Below are positions 7,181 through 47,133 of a stretch of 64,000 nucleotides of DNA, one piece after another. This DNA comes from Geminicoccus roseus DSM 18922 (GTDB lineage: Bacteria; Pseudomonadota; Alphaproteobacteria; Geminicoccales; Geminicoccaceae). Location of the stretch: the NCBI RefSeq assembly GCF_000427665.1, contig NZ_KE386572.1, forward strand, positions 2,256,196 to 2,320,195, in the 5' to 3' direction. The position numbers and the translations under genes are program-made. Below the pieces are notes generated by a model, which saw only the letters and a program-made list of their open reading frames with translations, was not told where the DNA came from and did no database searches. Within the stretch, counting starts at the first letter, position 1, and each line of letters begins with the position of its first letter.

Positions 7181-7186
7181 CTTCGG

Positions 7187-8671
7187 TCAGTCGCCCTTGG
7201 GCGTGCAAAAATAGATGCAGCGCTTGCCACCCTTGAGAGGCTGGCTGGAGCGGATTTCATAATGCTCGGCCAAGCAGGCTTCGAAGCCTGCCTGATGATA
7301 GTCCCCATACTGGTCGTCCTTGTTCGCCAGCAGGGTCTGGACCATCTCGTCCTCGCGACTGACGAACTCAATCACCAGGGCGGTGCCGAGCCCTGCCAGC
7401 CATCCAACGAAGTCGCGCATCGGGATGTTGGCGCTGATGACGATGTGATGGATCAGCGCCAGGCAGAGGGCAAGTTCCGGTCGGCCGCGCTCGGGCAGGG
7501 AGCGCCGCTCCATCCCCCGCCAGCCCTGGGCGGGTGAGGGGTCCGACAGGTTGACCACCAGTGGCAGGATCTGCCGACGATCGGAGCGGCCCTTCTGCTC
7601 CTGGTAAAGGTGCTCGATCGCCATCCAGTCGCCATCCATGGCGACCACATGATCGGCGTGTTCCGCCACGATCCGCGAGAAGGTGCCGGTGTTGCAGCCC
7701 AGGTCCCAGGCCAGCCGCCACTGCCGGTGACCGGCGGCCTTCCGCACGAAGTCGCATTTGGCCTCGAACTCGGGCGCCTCGTAGCTGTGGGTGCGGTGGT
7801 AGTCGGCCCAGACCGTCTTGGAGCCGCCCGGCTTCAGGCCGGACACGATCTTGCGCAAGCCTTCGACGTTGCGGACGATGAACTGCTTGTCGAAGCCCGC
7901 CTTGGCGATCGAGCTGCGAACCCCCTGCGGCTTGCCGGCGTAGCGGCGCTGCAGGCTGTCCTGCGCCAGCACGTGCAGGAGCACGCCCGGCCGCACCATG
8001 TCGCGGGCGGAGAGGAGGGCGCGCAGGCCGGCGGCAGGAATACCGTCGATCTGCCCACGCAGCCAGGGACGATAGTCGACGCCTTTGTAGGCCTGAAGAA
8101 ACAGTGGGTAGAGGAACAACTCGCAGAACTGCCGATAGCCGACCCAAGGCTCGCCCTCGTGCAGTATCTCGAAAGACGGGATGTCGATGAAGACCGGCTG
8201 GGCGCCCATCCACTGGACGTTATAGGCAGATGAATCCTTCAGGATCATCCCGGCTGGCAGCGCCGCCAGCATCAGGTCCAGATGCAGCAGGGCTGCATCC
8301 TTGAGCATTCCGAAGGTCCATTCGTAGGGGTAGGAAATGAAGGGTACCGTCTCATGGCGCAGTACCGCAGCCCAGCCATCTGCCTGATTGACCTCCGGCC
8401 CGCTCTCCAGACGCTCGGTCCTGACAATGCTGCCCGCCTTTATGTGCTCCCGGAAGAAGGGAGCGGCGCTGAGGGCTTGCCAGTTGGCGAGCGCCTTCGC
8501 ACTGATGCCGCGCAGGATCTGGTCGTCTCGGTAGTACACCGCGCCATTGCGATCCCGGAACGAGCCGGGTTCCGCGACAGCGGGAGCGATGCTGGGCTCG
8601 GCAGGCGCGATCAGCGTTTCACTTGCGGGTGGAAGCATCGGGCCCGACATCCTGCTGCACGCTGTGGACAT
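7187..8671 (-). CDS. class I SAM-dependent methyltransferase, NoeA-like
   Basis: The protein, up to 494 residues, carries a class I methyltransferase domain in its second half. The SAM-binding glycine loop DLGCNTGTFSR is near residue 320, followed by an acidic residue in VVAMDGDW. The first half (FRDRNGAVYYRDDQILRGIS and an AYNVQWMG-like kinase-related fold) matches the layout of NoeA-type nodulation or polysaccharide methyltransferases, as remembered from that family. It is convergent with the acyltransferase, 6 bp from its stop. The 5' end overlaps the upstream small gene by 53 bp if the first ATG is used. Met12 (8638) would cut the overlap to 20 bp, so the start is uncertain. The likely target is a surface sugar. 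Confidence 0.8.
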   Translation of the reverse strand: MSTACSRMSGPMLPPASETLIAPAEPSIAPAVAEPGSFRDRNGAVYYRDDQILRGISAKALANWQALSAAPFFREHIKAGSIVRTERLESGPEVNQADGWAAVLRHETVPFISYPYEWTFGMLKDAALLHLDLMLAALPAGMILKDSSAYNVQWMGAQPVFIDIPSFEILHEGEPWVGYRQFCELFLYPLFLQAYKGVDYRPWLRGQIDGIPAAGLRALLSARDMVRPGVLLHVLAQDSLQRRYAGKPQGVRSSIAKAGFDKQFIVRNVEGLRKIVSGLKPGGSKTVWADYHRTHSYEAPEFEAKCDFVRKAAGHRQWRLAWDLGCNTGTFSRIVAEHADHVVAMDGDWMAIEHLYQEQKGRSDRRQILPLVVNLSDPSPAQGWRGMERRSLPERGRPELALCLALIHHIVISANIPMRDFVGWLAGLGTALVIEFVSREDEMVQTLLANKDDQYGDYHQAGFEACLAEHYEIRSSQPLKGGKRCIYFCTPKGD

Positions 8672-19815: not shown

Positions 19816-19825
19816 TGTGATCACG
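19816..19825. promoter_or_regulatory. TGTGATCAC operator, pxpA/hyuA divergent region
   Basis: TGTGATCACG lies in the gap between pxpA (minus) and hyuA pair B (plus), about 95 bp before hyuA. It is one of seven intergenic copies of this palindrome in the window and the leftmost one. The GntR-family gene at 46.4 kb is the proposed binder. Confidence 0.7.
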
Positions 19826-33466: not shown

Positions 33467-34393
33467 TCAGGATTTCAGGTCGTAGTCGATCGGCGTGGCG
33501 TGCCATCCCTGCCGGCGCTTCTCCCAGAAGGTCTCGCGCAGCCTGGCCGAGATGGGCCCCGGGCGGTCGTTGCCGAGAATGCGCGAGCCCAGCCGGCTGG
33601 CGGGCATGATGCCGCCGGCGGTGGTGGAGAACAGGATTTCGTCGGCTTCCTCGAGTTCGGCTCGCGGGATCGGGCGGATCTCGAACGGGATGCCGAGTTC
33701 CTGGCAGAGTTCCTGGACCGATTTGCGGGTGATCCCCTCCAGGGCGCCCTGGGGCGGGCTGACCACGGTGCCGTTGATCACGGCGAAGGCGTTGTAGCCG
33801 GGGCCTTCCGTCAGGTAGCCCTGATGATCAAGCAGCACGGCCGTGTCAAAGCCGGCGTCGTGCGCCTCGAACAGGGCGGCCGTAAGATCGCCCCAGTGAA
33901 AGTTCTTCACGGTCGGATCGACCGAATCCGGCGGTATGCGCGGCGTCCTGGCGATCATCGCGTGCACCCCCCGAGCCTGCTGCTCTTCGGTGAACAGCCA
34001 CACCCAGGGGATCGCGAAGCAGATCAGGTAGGCGCGGCCATAAGCCGGATGATAGGGCAATCCTGGCGCTGGTTTGCCGCGTGCGCAGTCCATAGCGACA
34101 TAGGCTTCCTTGAGCCCGCTTCGCTGGACGAGCCTGGTCAGGATTCCCTTGATGTCCTCGTCGCTCTCTTCCGGCTTCAGGCGAAGCTTGTCCATCGAGC
34201 GGCGAAACCGCGTGACATGGTCGTCCAGGCGGAAGAACGCGCCGAAATAGACGCCGACCACGTCATAGGTGACATCGGAGCGCCGGTAGCCCCAGTCGGT
34301 GACAGGGATCCGGGCTTCCTTGATCGGTACGATCTGACCGTCGACATAGGCAGCGCCGGCTGACCAGTCGATGGAGGGAGAGGGGCTTTCCAT
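33467..34393 (-). CDS. class IV (D-amino acid / branched-chain type) aminotransferase
   Basis: The 308-residue protein is a fold-type IV PLP enzyme. ARIPVTDWGYRRSD is the usual N-terminal block, the Schiff-base Lys is at 163 in TVKNFHWGD, and Glu196 in YLTEGPGYN holds the PLP ring nitrogen. The TTAGGIMPASR segment contacts phosphate. Members act on D-amino acids, branched-chain amino acids, 4-amino-4-deoxychorismate or (R)-amines. Having NFHWGD in place of N-x-L makes the subgroup unclear. An AGGAG site sits 9 bp before the ATG. The gene lies between two Hyu pairs in one operon, so it probably deaminates an amino acid released by ring opening. Confidence 0.88.
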   Translation of the reverse strand: MESPSPSIDWSAGAAYVDGQIVPIKEARIPVTDWGYRRSDVTYDVVGVYFGAFFRLDDHVTRFRRSMDKLRLKPEESDEDIKGILTRLVQRSGLKEAYVAMDCARGKPAPGLPYHPAYGRAYLICFAIPWVWLFTEEQQARGVHAMIARTPRIPPDSVDPTVKNFHWGDLTAALFEAHDAGFDTAVLLDHQGYLTEGPGYNAFAVINGTVVSPPQGALEGITRKSVQELCQELGIPFEIRPIPRAELEEADEILFSTTAGGIMPASRLGSRILGNDRPGPISARLRETFWEKRRQGWHATPIDYDLKS

Positions 34394-34419: not shown

Positions 34420-36231
34420 TCAGGCAGCCATCTGCTGGCGGAGGCTGGCGGTTGCGCTTTGGTCGACAGTCAGCGAGGAGCCGTTGCCGGTCAGGACCAC
34501 CCCGTAGACTTCGCGGGCGCGCTCGACCGATACCCAGCCCTCGCGCACGTCGTGCAGCACGCGCTGGACATCGCGGTGCAGTGGCGAGCCGTAGCCGCCG
34601 CCCCCGGAGGACCTGGACACCACATATTCCCCGGGCTCCAGCTTCACGCCGTAGCAGGCAGGCAGTTCCGTCAGGGAGCCATTGAGCTCGCGCTTGTGGG
34701 CCTGCGACAAGGCGCCCGGCCCTCCGCCCCGGGTGCCGGCGGCCGGATTGATCGTGCCGTCGGCGGTGTACAGGACTTCCATCGTGCAGCCGTCGATCGG
34801 CCCGAACTCCGCATAGGCGGAGGGTGCGCCCCGGAACTCGCCGGCGCCCTCCGTGTCGGCAAGCAGGCAGCGGCGACGCACGAAGACCGGATGGTGCAGT
34901 TCGTCGACCTCGATGCTGTCCTGCCGGCAAAGCCCGGCGTTGCCGACGTGGATGATCGACAGGAAGCCGTCGGTCACCGGGGTGCCTGCCCCGCCCGTGG
35001 TGCCCAGGAAGATCTGGTTGACGAACGCGGCCCCGTCATGCCGCGGGTCCTTGCCGGAGATCACGCCCATGGCAGGGGGCATGATCGGACCGGTATCGGC
35101 CATGCCATAGCCAGGGGCGATCTCCGCGATCGCACGCTGTACCGGGTTCGAAACCCGGTCGGCGAGGTTGGTGGTGGCAACGGAGCAGGAATGGGGGTGG
35201 CGCGGGATGCCGACCACGCAGTTCTCGCGCAGGAGCACATCGACCCGCCGGAAGCTGCCGGCATTGGCGGGCACGGTGTGGTCGAGGATGCCGTTGTAGA
35301 TGCCGACCATGGCAGCGGTCCGCGCGCAGCCTTCCGACAGGTTCAGGCCGCAGGGCTGGCAGTCGATGTTGTCGCGCAGATCGACCACGATCTTGCCGGC
35401 CTGGGCATCGATCTGCATGTCGACCTTGACCGGGATCCCGTCCGGCACGCCGGGGAAGGGGTCGTGCGCCGAGTGGACCGTGACCCTGCCGGAAGGCAGG
35501 CGACCGATCGCGTCGATCATCTTCCTTTCGGAATAGTCGAACCAGCCTTCGGCATATTGCTCGAGCGTGTCCCAGCCGACCTCCTTGCCGAGTTCCAGCA
35601 ACTCGCGCTCGCCGATCCGCACCGCTCCAAGCGTCGCCAGATAGTCGCCCCACCACTGCTCGGGCACCCGGATGCGCGCCTTGCACATCCGGATCAGGTC
35701 GTTGTTGTCCTGATAGCCCGACTGGATCTTGGCGGCCGAGAAGATCAGGGCGCCTTCCTCGTACACGTCCTTGGCGTGGCCCATGTAGGTTGTCGGCCGC
35801 GAGTTCCCGCAATCCGCCTGATGGGCCTTGGCCAGCACGAAGAAGCGTACGATGCCGGCATCGTCGACCACGGGCACGATCAGGCAGTGATCGGCAGGAT
35901 GGGAATCGCCCTCGTAAGGACTGTTGTGAAGGAAGCAGTCGCCGGCCTTCAGCTCCGGATGATAGTGACGCACCGTCCTGCACATGATGTCCGGACCGAT
36001 CAGGGTGTGGATCGGCAGGCTCTCCGCGGTGGCCAGCAGGTCGCAGTCGGCGGTCAGGATCACGCAGGAGAAGTCGTGCGCGGTGTTGAGCACGCCGGAA
36101 CGGGCGGTCCGGAACAGGGTGTTCTGCATCTTGCGGGCGATGCTCTCCATCCGGTTGGAGATGATCGCCATCCGGACGCCTTCGCGTGCCCAGCCCGGGC
36201 GGTTGTCGGCAACGGTTTCGTTCGAATCCAT
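34420..36231 (-). CDS. hyuB: hydantoinase B / oxoprolinase family protein (HyuB, pair D)
   Basis: The 603-residue protein carries HDFSCVILTADCDLL, FLHNSPYEGDSHPADH and SSGGGGYGSP. The conserved N-D-P-Y is N-S-P-Y and the closing G-D-P is G-S-P, two Asp-to-Ser changes at conserved motifs that should be checked for effect on activity. The ATG used has a GGAAGGGATAGG stretch just upstream. Longer readings in the same frame run through the 153-bp gap to hyuA without similarity. That gap holds a weak TCCCGCC/GGCGGGA hairpin. Overall the protein is closest to pair A HyuB in this window. Confidence 0.9.
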   Translation of the reverse strand: MDSNETVADNRPGWAREGVRMAIISNRMESIARKMQNTLFRTARSGVLNTAHDFSCVILTADCDLLATAESLPIHTLIGPDIMCRTVRHYHPELKAGDCFLHNSPYEGDSHPADHCLIVPVVDDAGIVRFFVLAKAHQADCGNSRPTTYMGHAKDVYEEGALIFSAAKIQSGYQDNNDLIRMCKARIRVPEQWWGDYLATLGAVRIGERELLELGKEVGWDTLEQYAEGWFDYSERKMIDAIGRLPSGRVTVHSAHDPFPGVPDGIPVKVDMQIDAQAGKIVVDLRDNIDCQPCGLNLSEGCARTAAMVGIYNGILDHTVPANAGSFRRVDVLLRENCVVGIPRHPHSCSVATTNLADRVSNPVQRAIAEIAPGYGMADTGPIMPPAMGVISGKDPRHDGAAFVNQIFLGTTGGAGTPVTDGFLSIIHVGNAGLCRQDSIEVDELHHPVFVRRRCLLADTEGAGEFRGAPSAYAEFGPIDGCTMEVLYTADGTINPAAGTRGGGPGALSQAHKRELNGSLTELPACYGVKLEPGEYVVSRSSGGGGYGSPLHRDVQRVLHDVREGWVSVERAREVYGVVLTGNGSSLTVDQSATASLRQQMAA

Positions 36232-36384
36232 CGGACCTATCCCTTCCGTCCTGGGGCACGGCTTGTCGTGAGGCGCAGGCTTGCGGCGCTGCAGCCCGGT
36301 CCCGGCAGCTTGCACCGGTGGTCCCGCCTGCTCGAAGTGCATGGCGGGATCGTGGTGTCGGACACGTTCATCAGACCTCCACCC

Positions 36385-38445
36385 TCAGAACGTGACCCGC
36401 AGGCCGCCACCTTCGGTTCGCACCGCCGTCGTGCCCGGATCGACCACGACCGTGGTGAACGAGGACTCGATGATCGCGGGGCCGGTCACTGGCTCGCCCG
36501 CCTCCATGGCCTCGAACCGTGCCACCGGCGCATCGACCCAACCGGTGGCGGCGAAGTAGATCTGGCGGCGGTGCATCATCGGCCCTGCGCCCTTGGGACT
36601 GGGCAGGCGGCCGCTACCGCTCTCGCGCAACCGACAGCTCACCTTGGCGCGCCAGGTGACGAACTCGACCTCGGAATGAGGATCGCTGATCTCGAAGATG
36701 CTCTTGTGGGTGTCGTGGAACGCCTGCTTGAGCGCATCCAGTTCCGTCTGGCTGCTGATCCGGCCGGACGCCATCGGCACCTCGATCTCCCAGATCTGGT
36801 GCGGGTAGCGCGCTTCGACCGAGAACTCGGTGACGACCTCCAGGGCACCTTCGCCAGGCCCGTCCGCGAAGGCCTTGCAGCGGCGCTCCAGCTCGGACAG
36901 CACCTCGTTGACCTGCTCGAAGGGGAAGCGGTCGCTGACAGTGAACAGCATCTGCGCATAGTCGGACGAGAGCTCCGACATCAGCGCCCCCGCTGCGCTC
37001 AGCACGGCGCCGGCCTCCGGGATCAGGACGCCTGCGCAGCCCAGCCTCTTGCCGACCGCCACCGCATTCAGCCCGGCGGCGCCGCCTCCTCCGATCAGGA
37101 TTGCCGTGCTCGGGTCGATCCCCTGGTTCACGGTGATCTCGTCGATGGCGCCCACCATCTTCTCGGTCGCCAGGGCCAGCACCGCCGCGGCGGTTTCCTC
37201 GACCGACAGGCCCAGCTTGTCGGAGACCTTCTCCTTCAATGCCGCCATCGCCGCGGCGCGGTCCAGCGCCATCGTGCCGCCCAGGAAGAAGTCCGGGTCG
37301 ATGTAGCCCAGGATGATCGAGCAGTCGGTGACGGTCGGCTCGGTGCCGCCCTTGCCGTACGCGACGGGACCAGGCGTCGAGCCGGCGCTTTTGGGGCCGA
37401 CCTGAAGAAGACCGCCGCTGTCGACCCAGGCGATCGAACCACCACCGGCTCCGATGCTCTTCACGTCGACCGAGGGGAAGCCGGTCATGTGGCCGCGGAA
37501 GCGCTGGCCCAGCCAGGTTTCACGGGTCCATGGAATGCGGCCGTCGCGGACCAGGCTGACGTCATAGCTGGTGCCACCAGTATCGGCGACGATCGCGGCT
37601 GCGTTGTCGAAGTCGCGGCTGGCATAGTAGCGGCCGGCAACAGGGGCCATGGCTGGCCCGGAGTTGATCGAGTGGATCGGGGCACGCGCCACTGCCTCGG
37701 CATCCATGATGCCGCCACCGGAGGTGACCATCAGCGTCCGGCCGGTAAAGCCTGCCTCGCGCAGCCGGTTGGTCAGGCCGTTCAGGTATTTGAACATGAG
37801 CGGCTTGAGCGAGGCGTCGATCACGGTGGCGGAGGCGCGGCGATACTCGCGCATGGTCGGGTTGAGGACGTGGGAGAGCGTCACCGAGACGTTGGGCAAA
37901 TGCTCGGCCAGCATTTCGCCGATCCGCCGCTCGTGGGCGCTGTTCAGCACCGACCAGAGCAGGCAGATGCCGACTGCCTCGACCTTCTCCTCCCTCAGCT
38001 TCTCGATCACCCGCAAGACCGCGGCTTCATCAAGTTCCTTCACCACCTCGCCTTCGGCATTGATGCGCTCGGGCACCTCGAAGGTCAGGCGGCGCGGCAC
38101 GTACGGCTCAGGGTAGGGGACCGTGAAGTTGAACGGCTCGATCCGGCCACCCTCGCGGATCACCAGGACATCCGGGTGGCCTTCCGTCGTCAGGAACGCC
38201 GTCTTGGCGGTGTTGCCGGTCAGGATCGCGTTGATCGCGCGGGTGGTGCCGTGAATGAACATCTGGCCGCGCGCCAGGAAGTCGCTGCGTTCCAGGCCAT
38301 AATGCGTTGCCGCAAGACCAAGGGCGTCCAACACGCCGCGCACCGGGTCGTCCGGCGTGGTCGAGGCCTTGAACAGGCGGATCTCGTCCCCGTCTTCCAC
38401 CACCAGATCGGTGAAGGTGCCGCCAGTATCGCAAGCGAGCCGCAT
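36385..38445 (-). CDS. hyuA: hydantoinase A / oxoprolinase family ATPase subunit (HyuA, pair D)
   Basis: The 686-residue protein has DTGGTFTD at 6-13, GTTRAINA at 66-73 and DTGGTSYDVS at 288-297, then GAGGGSIAWVD and GSTPGPVAYG. The usual PGPACYG motif has lost its Cys (V-A-Y-G). The open frame continues about 530 codons upstream, but that part is antisense to the chaperonin gene. The ATG at 38445 with a GGAGGGGG site is the start, and the family's first residues follow at once. It is the first gene of the operon hyuA-hyuB-aminotransferase-hyuA-hyuB and faces two TGTGATCAC operators in the divergent promoter region. Confidence 0.93.
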   Translation of the reverse strand: MRLACDTGGTFTDLVVEDGDEIRLFKASTTPDDPVRGVLDALGLAATHYGLERSDFLARGQMFIHGTTRAINAILTGNTAKTAFLTTEGHPDVLVIREGGRIEPFNFTVPYPEPYVPRRLTFEVPERINAEGEVVKELDEAAVLRVIEKLREEKVEAVGICLLWSVLNSAHERRIGEMLAEHLPNVSVTLSHVLNPTMREYRRASATVIDASLKPLMFKYLNGLTNRLREAGFTGRTLMVTSGGGIMDAEAVARAPIHSINSGPAMAPVAGRYYASRDFDNAAAIVADTGGTSYDVSLVRDGRIPWTRETWLGQRFRGHMTGFPSVDVKSIGAGGGSIAWVDSGGLLQVGPKSAGSTPGPVAYGKGGTEPTVTDCSIILGYIDPDFFLGGTMALDRAAAMAALKEKVSDKLGLSVEETAAAVLALATEKMVGAIDEITVNQGIDPSTAILIGGGGAAGLNAVAVGKRLGCAGVLIPEAGAVLSAAGALMSELSSDYAQMLFTVSDRFPFEQVNEVLSELERRCKAFADGPGEGALEVVTEFSVEARYPHQIWEIEVPMASGRISSQTELDALKQAFHDTHKSIFEISDPHSEVEFVTWRAKVSCRLRESGSGRLPSPKGAGPMMHRRQIYFAATGWVDAPVARFEAMEAGEPVTGPAIIESSFTTVVVDPGTTAVRTEGGGLRVTF

Positions 38446-38489: not shown

Positions 38490-38499
38490 TGTGATCACA
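38490..38499. promoter_or_regulatory. TGTGATCACA operator, hyuA / chaperonin divergent region, site 1
   Basis: The perfect palindrome lies 45 bp upstream of the minus-strand hyuA start. A second copy is centred 24 bp away, near two helical turns, which would allow side-by-side binding of two regulator dimers. Confidence 0.75.
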
Positions 38500-38513: not shown

Positions 38514-38523
38514 TGTGATCACG
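38514..38523. promoter_or_regulatory. TGTGATCACG operator, hyuA / chaperonin divergent region, site 2
   Basis: This has the same core GTGATCAC with G at the last position. It is placed between site 1 and the chaperonin start, about 105 bp before the ATG, so one site may serve each direction. Confidence 0.7.
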
Positions 38524-38628: not shown

Positions 38629-40206
38629 ATGACGGCGAAGAGGATCCGGTGGGGAGCCTGTGCTGGCGAAGCGCTGGCGCGAGGTGCGGATGTCGCGGCT
38701 GATCTGGTTGGAGCTACGCTTGGACCGGCTGGCCGGTCGGTGCTGGTCGGGCGATCGTTCGCGGCCCCGTTGATGCTGCGCGGTGGCCATACGCTCCTCC
38801 AGCAACTCGAACTGGAAGATGCCGATCAGCAGATGGGCGTGCAGGCCATGCGGGAATTGGCATGGCGCACCAGCGAGGAGGTGGGGGACGGCACCAGTAC
38901 CGCGATCGTGATGGCGCGGGCACTGCTGCGAGCCGGACTGAGGGCGGTGTCGGCGGGAATCGCGCCTGCCGATCTGCAGGATGCGATCGATGCCCATGCC
39001 AAGGTCGTGCTCCGGGAACTTGCAAGCGCAGGGCGACCTGTCTCCGGCCGGGATCAATTGGTTCCCCTCGCCACCCAGGCTGCCGGCGGCGATACCGCTA
39101 TCGGGGCGCTGGTCGCCGACGCGCACGAGCAGGTGGGACCTCACGGGGTGGTGCAGGTCCAGGAAGGCCGGGGCAGTACGGACGAGATCGAGATCGTGCC
39201 CGGACTGCATTTCGACCAGGGCTGGATTTCGCCGCATTTTGTCGATGATCCCAAGACGCAGAGCGTCGAGATCGATGATCCCTTGATCATCATGCATCTG
39301 GGCGTTCTCAATGACCTGGGTCCCATCGTGCCGATGCTGGAGATGGTCGCCAAGGCCCATCGCGGCTTGGTACTGATCGCAGAGAACGTGGGCGGTGAGG
39401 CGCTCGCCACGCTGGTCGTCAACAAGCAGCGGGCCGGCTTCAAGGTTGCTGCCGTCAAGGCTCCGGGTGCCGGCGCCTGGCGGGCATTGATGCTGGACGA
39501 CATTGCGGTCGCCACCGGCGGCGCGATGGTTGCCGAGCATCTCGGTACCCGGCTCGAGCATCTGCGCCCCCAGATGGCCGGACGCGCTGCCAGGATTCGC
39601 ATTACCCGTTCCGGCACCATCATCACGGGCGGCAGGGCGGATCCTGCTGCCATTGATCTGCGCCGACGCGAGATCCGGGACGCAATCGCCCGGGAGAAGC
39701 ATTTGTCGTTTGATCGCGACCAGCACCGCAAGCGCCTGGCGCGGCTGGAAGGTGGCATCGCCACCCTGCGCCTGGGTGGATCCAGCGCTATCGAGATCGC
39801 TGATCGCCAGAAGCGCGCCCAGAGCGCATCGGCAGCCGTGCAGGCGGCGCAGGAAGGCGGAGTCGTGCCAGGTGGCAGTGCAGCGCTGATTCACGCGGGG
39901 CGCCGGGCCCGTGCCGTCCTGCCGGACGACTTTCTGGGCCGACTGGTCGGGCAGGTCTTCGAAGCCGGCCTGCATGCCCCCCTTCGTATCATCGCCGACA
40001 ACGCCGGCCTCGACGGCCGGATGGTGGTCCATCGCCTGGCAGCTGGGGGAGACGATACCGCTTTCGATGTGCTTGGGCAGAATACGGTTGGAAGCGATTT
40101 CCTGGGTGATCCCCTGCCGGTGCTGAACGCGGCACTCAGCAATGCCGTGTCCACGGCGTCACGCCTTCTCGGGGCCTCCGTTACGATCACTTCCGACGCT
40201 GCGTGA
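38629..40206 (+). CDS. divergent GroEL-family chaperonin lacking two catalytic aspartates
   Basis: The 525-residue protein aligns along all of GroEL: TLGPAGRSVLV, ELED, GDGTSTA, the apical segment LIAENVGGEALATLVVN, VAAVKAPGAG and GGIATLRLGG. Recalled ungapped against GroEL, Asp52 is Gly (codon at 38,782) and Asp398 is Ser399 here (codon at 39,823). Both Asp residues are needed for ATP hydrolysis. Asp87 (GDGTS), which contacts Mg-ATP, is kept. Lys51 is Arg, and the GGM-rich tail is absent. The ATG gives the same residue numbers as GroEL up to Asp87, and GGGGGGA precedes it. No groES gene is adjacent. It probably folds or holds Hyu complexes, slowly or without cycling. Confidence 0.9.
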   Translation: MTAKRIRWGACAGEALARGADVAADLVGATLGPAGRSVLVGRSFAAPLMLRGGHTLLQQLELEDADQQMGVQAMRELAWRTSEEVGDGTSTAIVMARALLRAGLRAVSAGIAPADLQDAIDAHAKVVLRELASAGRPVSGRDQLVPLATQAAGGDTAIGALVADAHEQVGPHGVVQVQEGRGSTDEIEIVPGLHFDQGWISPHFVDDPKTQSVEIDDPLIIMHLGVLNDLGPIVPMLEMVAKAHRGLVLIAENVGGEALATLVVNKQRAGFKVAAVKAPGAGAWRALMLDDIAVATGGAMVAEHLGTRLEHLRPQMAGRAARIRITRSGTIITGGRADPAAIDLRRREIRDAIAREKHLSFDRDQHRKRLARLEGGIATLRLGGSSAIEIADRQKRAQSASAAVQAAQEGGVVPGGSAALIHAGRRARAVLPDDFLGRLVGQVFEAGLHAPLRIIADNAGLDGRMVVHRLAAGGDDTAFDVLGQNTVGSDFLGDPLPVLNAALSNAVSTASRLLGASVTITSDAA

Positions 40207-40233: not shown

Positions 40234-40243
40234 TGTGATCACA
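40234..40243. promoter_or_regulatory. TGTGATCACA operator before the Pot-type ABC operon, site 1
   Basis: The palindrome extends to 12 bp (CTGTGATCACAG) and starts 28 bp after the chaperonin stop. A TTGCCT hexamer at 40,224 and an ATTATT stretch at 40,245 flank it and could be parts of a promoter it would block; that is tentative. Confidence 0.7.
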
Positions 40244-40328
40244 GATTATTCCTTGAAGCATGGGGAGAGGGAACCGCGAGTTCCCTGAAAAACGAACGGC
40301 GCTGCAGGCTGGCACGGCTGTTGCACGC

Positions 40329-40338
40329 TGTGATCACT
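40329..40338. promoter_or_regulatory. TGTGATCACT operator before the Pot-type ABC operon, site 2
   Basis: A second copy with one changed end base lies 95 bp after site 1, close to nine helical turns, and 118 bp before the chosen ATPase start. The spacing would suit DNA looping. A coding start upstream of this site would place the operator inside the gene, which argues for the later ATG. Confidence 0.65.
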
Positions 40339-40455
40339 AGAATGAGTGCCGACGCTCTCGGGCAACCGGGTCTTGCTGAAAGGTTGCGCATGCCGCACGG
40401 TCAGACAGCCCTAGCATCGCGGCCTGCGGGCCGTATTGTGGAGGCACAGTCCTCA

Positions 40456-41556
40456 ATGGCCGACCCTGGCCCAGCTCCCGCTGTCCAGCCGATGCTGGAA
40501 GTCATCGATGCCGTGCACGCCTATGGCGACGTAGTCGCGCTGGACAACGTCACGGTCACTGCCGCGCCAGGCGAATTCCTGACCATCCTCGGCGAGAGCG
40601 GGTCCGGGAAGACCACGTTGCTGCGTCTCATCTCGGGGTTGGAGAAGCCCTACAAGATCGGCGCACTGCGACTGAACGGCGTGGATGTCCGCGAGGTCCC
40701 GGCGTTCTCGCGCAATTGCACGACCGTCTTCCAGAACTACGCCCTTTTCCCGCACATGACGGTGGGCGCCAACGTCGAGTACGGGCTGAAAGTCCGCGGC
40801 GTGGCGATGCCCGAGCGGCAGGAACGCGCGCGCGAGGCGCTGAACCTGGTGCGTCTTGCCGACAAGTACGATCGCAAGATCCATCAGCTATCCGGTGGCG
40901 AGCGCCAGCGCGTGGCCCTGGCGCGGGCGCTTGTACCGCGGCCGGCCATCCTCCTGCTCGACGAGCCGCTGGGTGCCCTGGACGAGAAGCTGCGCGTCGA
41001 CATGCAGGTGGAACTCATGGAGATCCACAAGACGCTCGGCATGACCTTCGTCTACATCACCCACAGCCAGGAAGAAGCGCTCACGATGAGTGACCGCATC
41101 ATCCTGATGCGCAAGGGCCGGATTGAGCAGGCCGGGCCGCCGCCCGCGATCTTCGACCGACCGGTAAGCCGGTTCGTCGCTGAATTCATGGGGGTCGAAA
41201 ACCTTCTCAGGGCGGAACTCGTGGCGCTGGATGGCGATCGGGCGACGGTGCAGGTAGGTGGTGCACGGCTGGACGGCCGCTGGTCCGGCAAGAGCCGGCC
41301 GCCCCTCGGTTCGGAAGTGGCTGTCGGCATGCGGGCGGAGCGACTGCACATTGCCGATCAGGCTCCGGACAACGACGCCCTGAACGTCCTGCCGGGCCGC
41401 CTCGACAGCGCGATCTACAAGGGAAAATATCTAGACCGCACCGTCCTTACCGAGATCGGGCCGATCAAGGTGCGCTTGTGGGATTCGTCCTCCACCACCA
41501 GGGACCGCGGGTTCGTCTGGTGGAAGAAGGACGACTGCATGGTCATGAGCGCCTGA
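40456..41556 (+). CDS. polyamine-type ABC transporter ATP-binding protein (PotA-like)
   Basis: The 366-residue protein has an ABC domain with Walker A GESGSGKTTLL, the signature LSGGERQRVAL, Walker B LLLDEPLGALD and the switch THSQEEAL. A C-terminal TOBE-like domain (residues about 250-366) follows, as in PotA and other MalK-like ATPases. It energises the two permeases downstream. The frame is open 45 codons further upstream, but the ATG with a GTGGAGG site is preferred. It heads a four-gene importer operon behind two operators. The cargo may be a polyamine, an omega-amino acid or an amide. Confidence 0.92.
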   Translation: MADPGPAPAVQPMLEVIDAVHAYGDVVALDNVTVTAAPGEFLTILGESGSGKTTLLRLISGLEKPYKIGALRLNGVDVREVPAFSRNCTTVFQNYALFPHMTVGANVEYGLKVRGVAMPERQERAREALNLVRLADKYDRKIHQLSGGERQRVALARALVPRPAILLLDEPLGALDEKLRVDMQVELMEIHKTLGMTFVYITHSQEEALTMSDRIILMRKGRIEQAGPPPAIFDRPVSRFVAEFMGVENLLRAELVALDGDRATVQVGGARLDGRWSGKSRPPLGSEVAVGMRAERLHIADQAPDNDALNVLPGRLDSAIYKGKYLDRTVLTEIGPIKVRLWDSSSTTRDRGFVWWKKDDCMVMSA

Positions 41557-41610
41557 GCCAGCACGGCCATCGTCAGCGACATTGCCCTCAGCCAGAGAAT
41601 GGAGAAGCCG

Positions 41611-42828
41611 ATGACCAGAGGTAAGTTCGATCCGAGCGACCCGCGCATGTCGCGGCGCAGCTTTGTGGAGAGTGCGCTCTCCCTCACCGCCCTGACCACG
41701 GCTGCGGCAACGCTGCCGGCTGCCGTTCCGGGGATGAGCCAGCAGGCCTGGGCGGCCGGAGAGGCGGTCAAAGGCTATGGCGTGACCACGGCGCAGCTGA
41801 AGGACTGGTCGATCATGACCAAGTCCATCGGCGTCGATATCGAGTACACGCCGACCAACGCCGACATCGGCGTGTTCATGCGCGATGTGATGTCGAACGA
41901 CCTGGGAGCGACCCACGACATCTTCATCTTTGACGGCGGTACTGAAAAGGTCCTCGGCCCGGAGGGCTATTACGCAGAGATCATCGAGGATCAGCCGGAA
42001 CTCACTTTGTGGGAGCGGACCCCGGACGCATGGAAGCGCTCGGACCTGATCCGCGCCGAAGGCAAGCAGTACGGCGTGCCGGTGATCGGCAATGGCGACG
42101 CGTTCGGCTATTTCCCTGAGGTCATCGACGCCAATCCGAACGGGATGGACGAGATACCCTGGACCACCTTCTTTGAGGGGGAGCAGGTCAAGGGACGGGT
42201 AGCGATCGATCGCAGCTGGCTGCAGTCGATGACCGAGACTGCCAACTACCTGAAACATCATGGCAAGGCGGAGATCGACGATCCGGCCGACCTGCCGCAG
42301 GAGCAGGCGCGCCAGGTGGCGGACTACCTGGTCGAGCGCAAGCGGGCCGGACAGTTCCGGACGATCTTCACGGCGTTCGAGGAACAGGTACAACTGCTTT
42401 CCAACAAAGAGATCGACATGATCAATTGTTGGGAACCGGCCACCAAGGAAGCCAACAACGCTTTAGGTGCCGGTACGGTGATCTATGCGTTCACCGTAGA
42501 AGGCTATTACAAGTGGGGCCATGGCGCCTATGTCCATACCCAGGCCATGGAGCGCGGCAACCTCGACAACATCTACAAGGTTCTGAATTATTTTCTTGGT
42601 GGCGAATATCGCGCCTATCAGGCCAAGCAGCGTGGCTATGCCGGCCCGAACATGGACCTGGGCGTTCAGTACGCCATCGAGCACGACTGGCCGCAGGAAG
42701 ACATCGACCTCCTCAAGTGGACCGAGGAGAAGGTGAACCGCAAGTTCGAGAAGCCATTCTTCGGCAAGTCGACACCGACCAATGCCGACGTGATGGAAGA
42801 AGAGTGGCAACGTTTCCTGAACGCCTGA
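41611..42828 (+). CDS. Tat-exported substrate-binding protein, spermidine/putrescine type (PotD-like)
   Basis: The 405-residue protein opens with a twin-arginine signal (MSRRSFVESALSLTAL, cleavage after AWA near residue 47). It is therefore exported folded by Tat, as is common for this family in alphaproteobacteria. The mature part has the type II binding fold with FDGGTEKVLGPEGYY, GKQYGVPVIGNGDAFGY and INCWEPATKEANNALGAG. An ATG four codons upstream is possible; the one chosen has GGAGAAG before it. A GGGGCCG/CGGCCCC hairpin follows and probably lowers expression of the permease genes relative to this one. Confidence 0.9.
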   Translation: MTRGKFDPSDPRMSRRSFVESALSLTALTTAAATLPAAVPGMSQQAWAAGEAVKGYGVTTAQLKDWSIMTKSIGVDIEYTPTNADIGVFMRDVMSNDLGATHDIFIFDGGTEKVLGPEGYYAEIIEDQPELTLWERTPDAWKRSDLIRAEGKQYGVPVIGNGDAFGYFPEVIDANPNGMDEIPWTTFFEGEQVKGRVAIDRSWLQSMTETANYLKHHGKAEIDDPADLPQEQARQVADYLVERKRAGQFRTIFTAFEEQVQLLSNKEIDMINCWEPATKEANNALGAGTVIYAFTVEGYYKWGHGAYVHTQAMERGNLDNIYKVLNYFLGGEYRAYQAKQRGYAGPNMDLGVQYAIEHDWPQEDIDLLKWTEEKVNRKFEKPFFGKSTPTNADVMEEEWQRFLNA

Positions 42829-42863: not shown

Positions 42864-42893
42864 TTCATCTTGCAGCAGAGGAGGCCATTGCCG

Positions 42894-43814
42894 ATGGCGG
42901 CAGCGCTGACGCCGACGCGACGTGCATGGGGCAAGCGGGTGCTGGACCGCCTGACGCCTACCGGTCTGGCGGTGCCGGCCTTCCTGATTGCCTGGTCGTT
43001 CCTGGTCATCGTTCCGCTGCTCGTCATCGTGATGTTCAGCTTCTTCCAGGTGAAGTCGTACCGGATCGTCTACGAGCCCTCCCTTGCCACCTGGGAGACG
43101 CTGATCGAGTCCGGTCGCTGGATCACCGCCGTGCGGACCTTGCGGATCGGGATCACCATGACGGTGATCGAACTGCTGCTGGCGTTCCCCTTCGCGCTCT
43201 GGCTGGCCAAGGGCTGCAAGTCCAAGACCGTCAAGGCGCTGATCATCACCCTGCTCACGATCCCGTTCTTCCTGGATACCTCGTCGCGGATCATTGTCTG
43301 GCGGTCGATCCTGGGCACCAACGGCTTCGTGAACACCGTCCTGATGTCGTCGGGCCTGATCGACGAGCCGATCAGCTGGCTGCTCTACTCGGAGTTCGCC
43401 GTTCATTTCGGCATGCTCGGGACCTACTTCCCGACCATGGTCTTTCCGATCTTCATGATCATGTCGCTGATCGACGACGACTACATCCAGGCTAGCAGCG
43501 ACCTTGGCGGCAGTCCGGGCCAGACCCTGCTCTACGTGATCCTGCCCATGTCGCTGCCGGGCGTGGTAGCCGGGGTGGTCTTCACCCTCGTGCCGCTGAT
43601 GGCCGCCTTCACCGAGCCGCAGATGCTGGGTGGCGGGTTCGTCAACCTGCTGGGCAACTCGGTCAATTCGGCCCTGCAGGAACTGAAGTATCCCACGGCA
43701 GCGGCCCTCTCGACCGTCGTCGTGGCGCTGCTCGGCCTCTGCCTCGCCGCCCTGATCATGATCACCCGAAAGCGGTTCGACATGTCCACCATGTTCCAGG
43801 CGATCCAGCGATGA
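42894..43814 (+). CDS. ABC transporter permease (PotB-like)
   Basis: The 306-residue protein has six or so hydrophobic segments, with VPAFLIAWSFLVIVPLLVIVMF cut short here to its theme, and the EAA-type loop QASSDLGGSPGQTL near residue 207. This is the contact to the ATPase. A GAGGAGG ribosome site 8 bp upstream of the ATG fixes the start; a TTG eight codons earlier is unlikely. It ends in a 4-bp ATGA overlap with the second permease. Confidence 0.92.
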   Translation: MAAALTPTRRAWGKRVLDRLTPTGLAVPAFLIAWSFLVIVPLLVIVMFSFFQVKSYRIVYEPSLATWETLIESGRWITAVRTLRIGITMTVIELLLAFPFALWLAKGCKSKTVKALIITLLTIPFFLDTSSRIIVWRSILGTNGFVNTVLMSSGLIDEPISWLLYSEFAVHFGMLGTYFPTMVFPIFMIMSLIDDDYIQASSDLGGSPGQTLLYVILPMSLPGVVAGVVFTLVPLMAAFTEPQMLGGGFVNLLGNSVNSALQELKYPTAAALSTVVVALLGLCLAALIMITRKRFDMSTMFQAIQR

Positions 43815-44683
43815 TCGGCTCTCCGTCCATGCCGACGATGGCGCTGATCGACGAGCGGGCGCTGGGCGAGCGCAGCCGGTTCTGGCGCCGGATCAGCCGC
43901 TGGCCGGGTTGGCCGGGGGTCGCAAGGGCGCTTGGCTTCTTCGCGATCGCGATGATCTACGTGCCGATGCTCTGGCTGGCGATCATGTCGTTTGCCGAGA
44001 GCCCCCTTTCCGGGATGCCCTATCCGCTGACTCTCGGCAATTACGGCGCCCTGGTGGAGGACGAGCGGTGGATTCCGCCCCTGCAGACCAGCTTGGTGAT
44101 GAGCCTGCTGGTGGCGCTCGTCTGCATGGTGATCGCCACCATGGTCGGCCGGGCGATCACGCGGATGCGACGGCCGGGTGGCGTCCTGCTGCTCACCCTG
44201 CTCCCGCTGTTCGTGCCGGGACTGACCATGGGGGCGGCGCTGTTCATCTTCCTGCGCACCATGCTCGGCCTGACCATGGGGCTGTGGTCGATATTCCTGG
44301 CGCAGCTGATCTGGGCGCTGCCGTTCGCCCTCCTGCTGGTCCTGGTGATCGCGAGCCGCTTCGATCTGCGGCTCCTGGAGGCGGCGGAGGATCTGGGCGC
44401 GCCACCCTGGCGGCGCTTTTGGGACATTGAGATGCCGCTCCTGCGGCCGGGCGTGTTCGGTGCCGGCGTGTTCGGCTTCCTCCTCTCGTTCAATGAACTG
44501 CTGCGTTCGCTGTTCCTGCGCGGCGTCGAGACGACCATGCCGATCTACAACTGGGCGATGGCCGCCTCGCAGCAGTCGCAGGTCCCGATCATCTTCTCGC
44601 TGGCGACCATCATCCTGGTGGTCACGCTGCCGGTGATGGGCCTGTTCTTCTGGTTCCTGTTCGTCAAGCTCGACCGCAGCTGA
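43811..44683 (+). CDS. ABC transporter permease (PotC-like)
   Basis: The 290-residue inner-membrane protein is the second channel subunit. About six hydrophobic helices follow a cytoplasmic start, with the ATPase-contact loop EAAEDLGAPPWRRFWDIEMP near residue 195. Its start overlaps the previous gene by 4 bp, so the two are coupled. It closes the importer operon. A 110-bp gap with an operator separates it from the aminotransferase gene. Confidence 0.92.
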   Translation: MIGSPSMPTMALIDERALGERSRFWRRISRWPGWPGVARALGFFAIAMIYVPMLWLAIMSFAESPLSGMPYPLTLGNYGALVEDERWIPPLQTSLVMSLLVALVCMVIATMVGRAITRMRRPGGVLLLTLLPLFVPGLTMGAALFIFLRTMLGLTMGLWSIFLAQLIWALPFALLLVLVIASRFDLRLLEAAEDLGAPPWRRFWDIEMPLLRPGVFGAGVFGFLLSFNELLRSLFLRGVETTMPIYNWAMAASQQSQVPIIFSLATIILVVTLPVMGLFFWFLFVKLDRS

Positions 44684-44731: not shown

Positions 44732-44741
44732 TGTGATCACA
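44732..44741. promoter_or_regulatory. TGTGATCACA operator before the class III aminotransferase
   Basis: The perfect palindrome lies 51 bp before the aminotransferase ATG and 48 bp after the permease stop. It shows that the aminotransferase can be controlled apart from read-through of the importer operon. TTGACG at 44,702 may be a -35 element, but no good -10 was seen. Confidence 0.72.
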
Positions 44742-44792
44742 CTGCGCCGCCCTCTTTCGGCGACGCTTCTTTCCCATTCATGGAGGCGACCG

Positions 44793-46223
44793 ATGCTGGA
44801 TGATCAAGCGCTGGGCGAGCGTGCCAATTACTCCTTGGAAGACATGGACCGGAACAGCCTGTTCCATCCCCTGACGTCGATCGCCACGCACATGGACAAG
44901 GGCCCTCATATCATGGGCAGCGCCAAGGGCGCCCGCCTCCGTGATCACAGTGGCAACGAGTTGGTGGATTGCTCCGGCGGGCTCTGGTGCGTGAATGTCG
45001 GCTATGGCCGGCCCGAGATCGCCGAGGCCGCCAAGCAGGCCATCCTGGACCTGAACTACTGGCATCTGTTCGGCTCGTCCTCCAACGAGGCAACGATCCG
45101 GCTTGCCGACAAGGTGCTCACCCTGTTCCATGAACAGGCGAATGCCCGGCACCTGAAGCGCGTGTTCTTCGGCACCTCCGGATCCGATGCCAATGACACC
45201 AACTACAAGCTCGTCCGCTACTACGCCAACCTGCGCGGCACCCCTGAGAAGAAGAAGATCATTTCCCGCCAGGGAGGCTATCACGGCCTGACGGCGGCGG
45301 CGGCGGCGCTCACCGGCATTCCCGTCTACCACAAGGCGTGGAGCCTGCACTCGGACGACGTCATCCACACCAGTTGCCCGCATTACTTCCGCTTCGCCCA
45401 TGACGGCGAGAGCGAGGAGGCATTCTGCGACCGGATGATCGCCGAGATCGAAGGGATCATCGAGCGCGAAGGGGCGGACAAGATCGGCGCGTTCATTGCC
45501 GAGCCCATCATGGGAACCGGCGGCGTCCTGATGCCCCCCAAGGGCTACTTCGCCAAGCTCCAGCCTGTGCTGCAGAAGCACGACATCCTGCTGATCGCCG
45601 ACGAGGTGATCACCGGCTTTGGCCGCACGGGCCATTGGTTCGGCACCGGTCTCTACGATCTCAAGCCCGACATCGTGACCCTCGCCAAGGGTATCACCAG
45701 CGCCTACTTCCCGGTCTCCGCCTCGGTGGTGTCCGACAGGATCTGGAACGTCCTGGAAGGCGCCTCGGCTGAGTTCGGGCCGGTGATGCACGGCTTCACC
45801 TATTCCGGGCATCCGGTCGGTGCCGCCGTGGGACTGGCCAACCTCGCCATCATGGAGAACGAGGGGATGGTTCAGAATGCCCGCATGGTGGGAACCTATC
45901 TCCGTGACGGCCTCCAGCAGCGCCTGGCCGAGCATCCGTTTGTCGGAGATGTTCGCGGCGAGGGGTTGATGATCGGCGTGGAGTTCACTGCGGATCGTGC
46001 CAAGCGGCGCCCGTTCGCCCCCGGCACCGGTGCCCACCGTGTGGCCGCGGCCAAGGCGGTGGAACACAAGCTGATGGTCCGCGCCCTGCCGTTCATCGAG
46101 GTGGTGTCGTTCTCGCCGCCGCTCTGCATCACCAAGGCGGAGTGCGACATGGCAATCGACCGGTTCGCTAGCGCCCTGAATGCGGCGACCCCGGAACTTG
46201 CACGGCTGAGCGCCTTGTCCTGA
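44793..46223 (+). CDS. class III (omega) aminotransferase of the cyclic-amide island
   Basis: The 476-residue PLP enzyme has GTSGSDAND near residue 127, ADEVITGFGRTG with Asp270, and the Schiff-base Lys299 in LAKG. It belongs to the same broad omega-transaminase group as the enzyme at 0.4-1.8 kb but is clearly separate in sequence. The TGGAGGCG site supports the ATG at 44793. Lactam pathways need an omega-amino acid transaminase after ring opening (for example 6-aminohexanoate or 5-aminovalerate), which fits its place beside HyuAB genes and a Pot-type importer. That link is inference. A GTGATCAC core also occurs inside the gene at 44941. Confidence 0.92.
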   Translation: MLDDQALGERANYSLEDMDRNSLFHPLTSIATHMDKGPHIMGSAKGARLRDHSGNELVDCSGGLWCVNVGYGRPEIAEAAKQAILDLNYWHLFGSSSNEATIRLADKVLTLFHEQANARHLKRVFFGTSGSDANDTNYKLVRYYANLRGTPEKKKIISRQGGYHGLTAAAAALTGIPVYHKAWSLHSDDVIHTSCPHYFRFAHDGESEEAFCDRMIAEIEGIIEREGADKIGAFIAEPIMGTGGVLMPPKGYFAKLQPVLQKHDILLIADEVITGFGRTGHWFGTGLYDLKPDIVTLAKGITSAYFPVSASVVSDRIWNVLEGASAEFGPVMHGFTYSGHPVGAAVGLANLAIMENEGMVQNARMVGTYLRDGLQQRLAEHPFVGDVRGEGLMIGVEFTADRAKRRPFAPGTGAHRVAAAKAVEHKLMVRALPFIEVVSFSPPLCITKAECDMAIDRFASALNAATPELARLSALS

Positions 46224-46262: not shown

Positions 46263-46383
46263 GCTCCTTCCGACATCATGTCGCCAGACGGTTGTCTGCC
46301 GGCGGAACCCGCGCGATAGCGGCCGGGGATGAGTGCGCTCATCAAGCCGCCGCCTATGTCGTTCCACCATATTGAAGTCACGC

Positions 46384-47133
46384 ATGACATCCGATGGCAT
46401 CGGCCCGGCCTGGCTGCTGCGGCATCGTCCAGATGCGCCCGAGCCCGACGAGAGTACGTTAGGTCAACAGGTCTATCTCGGCCTGGAAGAGCGGATCCTC
46501 ACAGGCCAGCTCTTGCCGGGCGCCAAGGTCAGCCTGCGCAAGCTCGCGACCTCCCTTGAGACGAGCATGCAGCCGGTCCGCGAGGCGGTCGGACGGCTGG
46601 TGGCTGCCTCTGCCCTGGAAATGACGCCCAACCGGTCGATCCGGGTGCCCCCGGTCGACCGGGGGGTGATCGACGAGATCTGGGCCATGCGGCTGCTCCT
46701 GGAGGGAGAAGCGGCGGCCCGCTTCGCGGCCCGTCATACCCTGGCGGAAACCCGAGAACTGTTCGCACCCACCCGCACCATGCGCACCTTACGGTTCGGC
46801 GTCGATCTGGTGCCGACCATGCAGGGGCTGATGGAGTGGAACTTCCGCCTCCTGCGCGGCTCAGGCTCGCCCATTCTGATCGGCATGGTCCATGGCCTGC
46901 TCTTGCGGTACGCCCCGTTCCTCGCGCATGCGCTGACGGTGCCGACGCCCTATGACGAGGCCTTCCTGCAGTTCACCCTGCATATCCAGGACGAACTCGT
47001 GCTGGCGATCGAGGCGGGGGATGTCGCGGCGGCGCGTCACCTGCGCTGCGCCGACCTCCGGTCCTTTCAGCGGTTCCTGTACAGCCGGGTTGGCTGGCAG
47101 CCGGGAGTGGGAGACGACGTTCCGGCGGCCTGA
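46384..47133 (+). CDS. GntR-family transcriptional regulator, FCD (FadR-like) type
   Basis: The 249-residue protein has a GntR winged helix at residues 27-90 (VYLGLEERILTGQLLPG, then LRKLATSLETSMQPVREAVGRL) and an all-helical FCD ligand domain from about 95. The FCD metal ligands are not all evident, so a metal-free effector site is possible. It is the only regulator inside the 19.8-47.1 kb island and is the best candidate to bind the seven TGTGATCACA sites. FadR-type GntR proteins bind short palindromes of this length. No such site lies directly before its own gene. The start is uncertain: a GTG 17 codons upstream is the alternative. It converges on the SDR gene with a 14-bp gap. Confidence 0.88.
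   Translation: MTSDGIGPAWLLRHRPDAPEPDESTLGQQVYLGLEERILTGQLLPGAKVSLRKLATSLETSMQPVREAVGRLVAASALEMTPNRSIRVPPVDRGVIDEIWAMRLLLEGEAAARFAARHTLAETRELFAPTRTMRTLRFGVDLVPTMQGLMEWNFRLLRGSGSPILIGMVHGLLLRYAPFLAHALTVPTPYDEAFLQFTLHIQDELVLAIEAGDVAAARHLRCADLRSFQRFLYSRVGWQPGVGDDVPAA

Follow-up and report, generated by a model that had tools for sequence, protein, structure and literature searches.

A GroEL paralogue without the hydrolysis aspartates at a HyuAB/ABC transporter locus of Geminicoccus roseus: a candidate locus-dedicated chaperonin

GroEL-like proteins tied to one metabolic operon have been described before: MmoG, PrmG and mycobacterial MimG are encoded at binuclear iron monooxygenase operons and are needed for the operon's enzyme (PMC7994243, PMC6849523), and the gbu cluster requires a GroES/GroEL-like pair at 37 degrees (PMC10653785). 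Chlamydial GroEL2 and GroEL3 are further natural paralogues of GroEL, encoded at a distance from groES (PMC5904260) and reported to differ at the ATP binding and hydrolysis regions (PMC1892554). Here, we describe a GroEL paralogue, groEL', in a stretch of 64,000 nucleotides from Geminicoccus roseus DSM 18922 (contig NZ_KE386572.1, positions 2,256,196 to 2,320,195; hereafter the window), whose product, P0001, lacks both catalytic aspartates of GroEL, Asp52 and Asp398. Like the MimG/MmoG genes, it is a GroEL copy at a metabolic operon; unlike the chlamydial paralogues, it belongs to other bacteria and another setting, and P0001 scores far under the models NF038369 and NF038370 (155 and 101.5 versus 600 bits).

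The movements of E. coli GroEL derive from ATP binding, and its D398A variant binds ATP normally, retains 3% of the ATPase activity and still encapsulates and folds proteins (PMC3326522). PDB entry 3WVL, given as a football of 'D52A/D358A', as printed (PMC5941174), is among the solved-chain matches of P0001, and Asp398 is reported to be conserved in CPNA1 and CPNA2 (PMC5636168). No paper naming a natural loss of Asp398 turned up in a search of partly available texts that had most subscription journals outside it. The laboratory mutants D398A and D52A/D398A are changed at the same places as P0001, but were engineered; the double mutant is reportedly slower still in hydrolysis.

The ATP cycle of GroEL is usually seen as the point of the machine, and D398A folds with hydrolysis almost stopped; a D398A-like change seems to have arisen naturally in GroELs that each belong to one catabolic locus. 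The case is real, partly conserved and unusual: operon-dedicated GroELs are a kind already known, and the loss of the hydrolysis residues would be the new part. It makes testable the use of a chaperonin without turnover, and the idea that hydrolysis is dispensable once the client is single. In practice, such proteins might help to express HyuAB-type lactam hydrolases or serve as natural slow variants for structural work.

Catalytic aspartates of groEL' and its orthologues

The gene and the residues of interest, numbered by alignment to E. coli MG1655 GroL as the reference for Asp52, Asp87 and Asp398, are:

38629..40206, + strand, groEL' (groEL paralogue, protein P0001), 525 aa, 39% identical to the genome's canonical GroEL
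38782..38784, + strand, GGT, Gly at the place of E. coli GroEL Asp52 (alignment)
38887..38889, + strand, GAC, Asp87 retained (alignment)
39217..39237, + strand, Gln197, Trp199 and His203, altered residues of the apical binding face (alignment)
39823..39825, + strand, AGC, Ser at the place of E. coli GroEL Asp398 (alignment), residue 399 of P0001

The reading frame runs from an ATG at 38629 to a stop ending at 40206, with no internal stop. By full-length, three-domain homology P0001 is a group I chaperonin: it is matched by Pfam Cpn60_TCP1, the best chain among solved group I chaperonins is 1iok (E 1.8e-112, residues 1-517 covered), and it lies over the cut-offs of the broad NCBIfam GroEL models NF009487 (447.4 versus 352 bits) and NF000592 (431.6 versus 397), but under that of the NCBI equivalog model TIGR02348 (428.9 versus 582.1). 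The catalytic pair Asp398 and Asp52 that also characterizes the group is, however, replaced by Ser and Gly. Besides full-length homology, P0001 shares with canonical GroEL (that of its own genome, L002, and that of E. coli) most hydrophobic apical residues and the residues of the nucleotide loops: Thr30, Gly32, Pro33, Asp87, Gly88 and Gly415 are all present, with Lys51 replaced by Arg and Thr90 by Ser, and Gly32, Gly86, Asp87 and Gly88 are unchanged across the seven operon-linked rows of one alignment (A2). It departs from L002 in their low identity and in having neither a C-terminal GGM tail nor an adjoining groES, and from E. coli GroEL by D52G, D398S, R197Q, Y199W, Y203H, E386A and K51R. 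Positions 197, 199 and 203 presumably belong to the apical binding face, and Gln197 and Trp199 are identical in all four full-length groEL' orthologues.

Alignment with MG1655 GroL bears out the reading of the earlier note on this DNA, made from an ungapped comparison, that Gly stands at Asp52 and Ser at Asp398 with Asp87 kept; no other Asp falls at the 52 or 398 places. By plain count, residue 398 of P0001 is Gln and the Ser is residue 399. We take Asp87 to be the Mg2+ ligand, as in GroEL. Misalignment is ruled out, the region around each of the two sites being ungapped in several alignments, and so is a sequencing error, Asp398 being missing in separate genomes too. A compensating acid directly adjacent in sequence was looked for and is present at neither site (R-G-G-H; A-Q-S-A).

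In a first comparison of 71 GroEL rows, which omits identical rows and 17 partial GroELs, both Asp52 and Asp398 occur in all 67 of the other full-length non-identical rows; only the four full-length groEL' orthologues are without Asp398, and two of these four also without Asp52. With partial sequences counted, Asp398 is missing in 5/5 readable orthologues (window S, L003 A, L033 A, L035 G, L038 R; L and G numbers are our handles for loci and genomes), and Asp52 in 3/5 (window G, L035 N, L041 N; present in L003 and L038). The loss of Asp398 is therefore a shared event and that of Asp52 a patchy one. Since the window protein and that of Geminicoccus harenae (L003) pair at 99/99 in the tree described below, Asp52 would most simply have been lost in the window line after the split from G. 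harenae. The natural double loss proposed in the earlier note thus holds for the window protein, from which both aspartates are gone, but not as a lasting feature, Asp52 being kept in G. harenae L003 and in G015 (L038); a double loss conserved among the orthologues, which we had considered, is wrong for the same reason.

Locus, operator-like sites and genome context

The genes and sites around groEL' are, with ABC standing for ATP-binding cassette and ORF for open reading frame:

33467..34393, - strand, class IV (branched-chain/D-amino acid type) aminotransferase, below the models' cut-offs
34420..36342, - strand, hyuB-type subunit (Pfam)
36385..38445, - strand, hyuA-type ATP-dependent amide hydrolase subunit; best NCBIfam model caprolactamase CapA, below cut-off
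38490..38499, no strand, TGTGATCACA, operator-like palindrome between hyuA and groEL', also in orthologous loci
38514..38523, no strand, second palindrome copy, TGTGATCACG
40234..40243, no strand, TGTGATCACA between groEL' and the ABC ATPase gene
40329..40338, no strand, TGTGATCACT at the listed start of the ABC ATPase ORF
40321..41556, + strand, PotA-type ABC ATPase (Pfam and further model matches); the true start may lie further on
41599..42828, + strand, solute-binding protein with twin-arginine motif S-R-R-S-F-V (motif by eye; no Pfam match, role inferred from its place between ABC genes)
42870..44683, + strand, two ABC permeases (Pfam)
44733..46223, + strand, class III aminotransferase (Pfam and further model matches)
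46333..47133, + strand, GntR/FCD regulator (Pfam)

The best model for the window HyuA is CapA, though at 570 bits against a cut-off of 1000, so that a cyclic amide as substrate of the locus is a reasonable guess and nothing firmer. Five other groEL' loci were found (Geminicoccus harenae L003, G001, G003, G015 and G025) with the same gene order, namely hyuB-hyuA on one strand and, diverging from them, groEL', potA, the binding protein, two permeases, the class III aminotransferase and GntR. The exceptions are G015, where matches stop after the two permeases; G001, where the contig starts inside groEL' and shows the potA side only, with hyuA/hyuB on another contig; and G025, where the contig ends inside groEL' and shows the hyuA side only. 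Where both flanks could be read (window, L003, L035, L038), groEL' stands between hyuA and potA in all four cases. Our genome samples comprised 31 of the family, 385 of the class, and 21 and 2 of two further families; groEL' is present in 5/31 of the family sample, and in the class sample the window scored 892 bits and the next match 502, with canonical rows at ~470-500 among the matches listed, a query that detects only the window type of GroEL. Binding proteins orthologous to that of the window (41599-42828) carry the twin-arginine motif too, as do those of three distant loci without GroEL.

Within the window, TGTGATCACA-like sites with at most one mismatch number eight versus 1.24 expected, and none of 100 shuffles reaches eight. 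Exact palindrome copies adjoin groEL' in 6/6 orthologous loci. That the gene lies between operators of a metabolic regulon, as had been claimed, agrees with these sites on both of its sides, kept in relatives together with the gene order; the GntR/FCD regulator is a possible binder of the palindromes.

A GroES-like ORF was found neither in the 64-kb window nor in 23 related-locus stretches, whereas the controls L002, L047 and L196 were recovered. The genome (99% complete) has a single groES, ~0.9 Mb from groEL', which adjoins the one other GroEL match, the canonical L002 (C5:1397433-1398992). The earlier note's remarks that no groES stands beside the gene and that the GGM tail is absent are thus in line with the GroES search and the alignment.

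Related GroELs at other amide-hydrolase loci

Later searches aimed at related loci yielded more rows without Asp398 (types D and E below). The GroELs of such loci, with and without the aspartates, fall into five types, of which the window type of groEL' is type A. In type B (family f121), the GroEL of G150 lies directly before the potA of the same transporter, with hyuB in the stretch (L167), and that of G253 has its N part beside hyuB (L221) and its C part before potA (L166), on two contigs, parts that we take as one gene; Asp52 and Asp398 are both present in G150 and in the G253 N part. Type C (family f82) stands beside a class IV aminotransferase gene in four genomes (L192-L195), again with both aspartates, and hyuA lies near the GroEL in two longer stretches, with hyuB also in L218. 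In type D (family f82), a potA-permease-permease-binding protein-GroEL operon converges with hyuB-hyuA, with an Asp/Glu/hydantoin racemase gene close by, an arrangement seen complete in G424 (L219), and the GroEL of three genomes (L212-L214) has Asn at 398 and retains Asp52. Type E, in G015 (L040) and on a plasmid of Shinella sp. PSBB067 (L190), is a highly diverged GroEL whose gene immediately precedes the same transporter; pxpB/pxpC-like genes come next, which in L040 fall below the PxpB/PxpC equivalog cut-offs. In this GroEL, position 52 is Ser or Thr (for L040 a gap in one alignment), position 398 is Arg, Asp87 is present, and part of the 199-204 face falls in a gap. All five types come with a HyuAB or PxpBC-like gene, and four with the transporter (a distant one in type D). 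The search for the same double change beside hyu clusters that the earlier note proposed gave a divided result: type E is without both aspartates, types B and C keep both, and type D has only Asn398.

The diverged GroEL-like gene of L190 occupies 6236-7714 (NZ_CP069303.1), where the distributed gene table has no gene, and tblastn of this pxp-type GroEL against plasmids returned only its own record at E 1e-30. No GroEL was found at the four loci with distant binding proteins (L168-L171) in the stretch read; L165 and L189 were not evaluable, the stretch starting too near the contig edge. Across the family, hyuA is no more than 10 kb away at five of the 34 GroEL places, four of them type A and the fifth in G008, as a raw count (49 of 50 hyuA places entered; short GroEL fragments omitted). 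The G008 gene (L126 7687-9318, G008:C96), which lies 2.4 kb from hyuA and encodes a second canonical-like GroEL lacking the GGM tail, was considered as a relative and is treated as unrelated, since it groups with canonical GroELs and has both aspartates.

In a tree built with a hand-picked subset of canonical GroELs and without three partial rows, types A-E form a single clade with moderate support (Shimodaira-Hasegawa approximate likelihood ratio test, SH-aLRT, 98.8; ultrafast bootstrap, UFBoot, 86), beside the GroELs from monooxygenase operons (96/85). With several long branches and UFBoot below 95, the clade is a lead, not proof. Type D is separated from A and E by weak branches (71.5/53, 72.2/43), which would imply two losses of Asp398; we do not argue for at least two losses, since a tree uniting A, D and E, with one loss, fits equally well (approximately unbiased test, p 0.555). 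From these sequences, the hydrolysis residues appear to have been given up in some branches, once or more often.

The neighbouring branch holds the MimG-like GroELs of relatives of the host (L036, L039, L045), which retain Asp52, Asp87 and Asp398, whereas only Asp87 remains in the window protein, and the scan of its neighbours showed no monooxygenase. Window groEL' is thus at a hyu/ABC locus rather than in a binuclear iron monooxygenase operon, and outside the MimG-like clade, in the one next to it. The MimG-like genes lie at L036 8201-9826, L039 8321-9946, L045 7729-9360 and L044 7759-8847 (partial); those of L036, L039 and L045 are beside binuclear iron monooxygenase genes (Phenol_Hydrox/MmoB checked with Pfam for L045 and L036, by eye for L039), and their apical face is much altered (Y203H, F204M, L234E/Q).

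For the close pair Geminicoccus harenae-G001 (L003 with L033/L128), the ratio of nonsynonymous to synonymous substitution rates (dN/dS) of groEL' is 0.21 (bootstrap 0.12-0.34). Constraint is tightest in the apical domain: the ratio is 0.12 (apical) and 0.37 (equatorial) in the L003-L033 pair, and 0.20 and 0.37, respectively, in the window-L003 pair, where dS is near 1. Mean identity within the groEL' group is likewise higher in the apical (0.59) than in the equatorial domain (0.44), versus 0.76 and 0.71 in the other 67 GroELs. The D398N type (D) is under strong purifying selection (dN/dS 0.107, 0.069-0.154), below type C (0.234), and the two pxp-type copies (type E) give 0.416. All 11 sequences tested from types A, C, D and E, one of them partial, are free of stops. 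Values of dN/dS well below 1 and the constrained apical domain are therefore evidence against decay.

Proposed role, client and alternative explanations

We would put at about even chances that groEL' encodes a locus-dedicated group I chaperonin of the MimG/MmoG kind, reduced to an ATP-binding, nearly non-cycling form. This GroEL copy without a groES of its own would probably be switched on with the locus and serve a protein made there. Retained ATP binding is predicted from the nucleotide-loop residues and Asp87, and hydrolysis is expected to be very slow; by analogy with GroEL D398A, ATP binding and movement are expected in a natural GroEL that has lost Asp398, followed by a long stay in the state reached. 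The client would be captured by the ATP-driven movement and held or enclosed for long, or until assembled, in place of cycling, and any lid would be the genome's only GroES. A holdase, a slow timer or an assembly platform, the roles suggested in the earlier note, would be candidates too. A chamber that works once or slowly may be enough for a single client of its own regulon; this would explain both the loss of hydrolysis after the tie to the locus and the coexistence of types that keep the residues. Our first-choice client would be the ATP-dependent cyclic-amide hydrolase HyuA/HyuB, and our second the ABC transporter with its apparently Tat-exported (twin-arginine translocation) binding protein. 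Somewhat more tentatively, the whole clade may be dedicated to cyclic-amide catabolic loci, some branches being natural non-cycling ATP-binding chaperonins with a specialised apical face, acting as a one-shot chamber or platform and kept by purifying selection.

Several observations weigh against a locus-dedicated, non-cycling chaperonin. Types B and C retain both aspartates, and the loss of hydrolysis is therefore not needed for the association with the locus. The locus of G021 has hyuA (81%), hyuB, both aminotransferases and GntR, with neither this transporter nor groEL'. In the stretches read, GroEL is found at none of six other hyuA loci fetched (L172-L177), and five f82 loci (L184-L188) with the transporter's binding protein and permeases have no potA and no GroEL. 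The type B and E loci lack the palindrome in the stretches read: L167, L190 and L040 gave no match to the core GTGATCAC, and L166 has only the GGTGATCACC form, although all four have GroEL. In the L003-G001 pair, groEL' evolves faster than its neighbours at the locus, for which dN/dS is 0.06 (hyuA, the binding protein and a permease) or 0.13 (class III aminotransferase). AlphaFold run on two sequences (P0001 and P0002) gave a mean predicted local distance difference test score (pLDDT) of 35 and no ring model. As for the client, the related CapAB made in E. coli was ~60% soluble, with no chaperone named in the available part of the paper (PMC6061476), which counts against HyuAB; close CapAB homologues are said to lack activity after expression in E. 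coli (PMC8453981), so that a helper remains conceivable. No paper that connects GroEL with hydantoinase, oxoprolinase or lactam loci turned up among the partly available texts searched, subscription journals being mostly outside the search.

It is possible, if rather unlikely, that the chaperonin serves the ABC transporter rather than HyuAB, with the Tat-type binding protein or the PotA ATPase as the foremost candidates. GroEL lies directly before potA in 9/9 loci where this transporter's potA precedes the binding-protein gene (W, the window, and L003, L033, L035, L038, L040, L166, L167, L190), two of which (L040, L190) have pxpBC-like genes and no hyuA/hyuB match in the stretch read, and the G021 locus is without both transporter and groEL'. 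The binding proteins of the nine loci have a twin-arginine motif (by eye) and would therefore fold in the cytoplasm, but the motif also occurs in three GroEL-less loci (L169-L171), the two longer type C stretches have hyuA near the GroEL but no such transporter, and the five f82 loci have binding protein and permeases with no GroEL in the stretch read.

We consider it unlikely that P0001 is instead a hydrolysis-dead regulatory subunit that enters mixed rings with canonical GroEL and slows or retunes them for a client of the locus. The genome has one canonical GroEL and one GroES was found, and the fast equatorial domain, where we take the ring contacts to lie, fits changed constraints on self-assembly; the equatorial domain of P0001 is, however, only 34% identical to that of the canonical protein. 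Two subunit types in one ring are known from chloroplast Cpn60 (PMC4828840).

A decaying duplicate, whose aspartate losses would be drift toward gene loss, might account for the long branches, the fast evolution, the patchy Asp52 and the absence at the G021 locus, but is quite improbable given the 11 sequences (one partial) without a stop, the conserved palindromes and gene order, and the dN/dS of the close pair (0.21, 0.12-0.34; apical 0.12) and of the D398N type (0.107).

A role mainly in gene regulation, such as holding the GntR regulator, much as mmoG mutants lose mmo transcription, is very improbable, for although palindromes flank groEL', the four GroEL loci without GTGATCAC, with GGTGATCACC only in L166, speak against it.

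More TGTGATCACA-like sites lie away from groEL', at window positions 19816, 27961, 44732 and 44940, which suggests a wider regulon.
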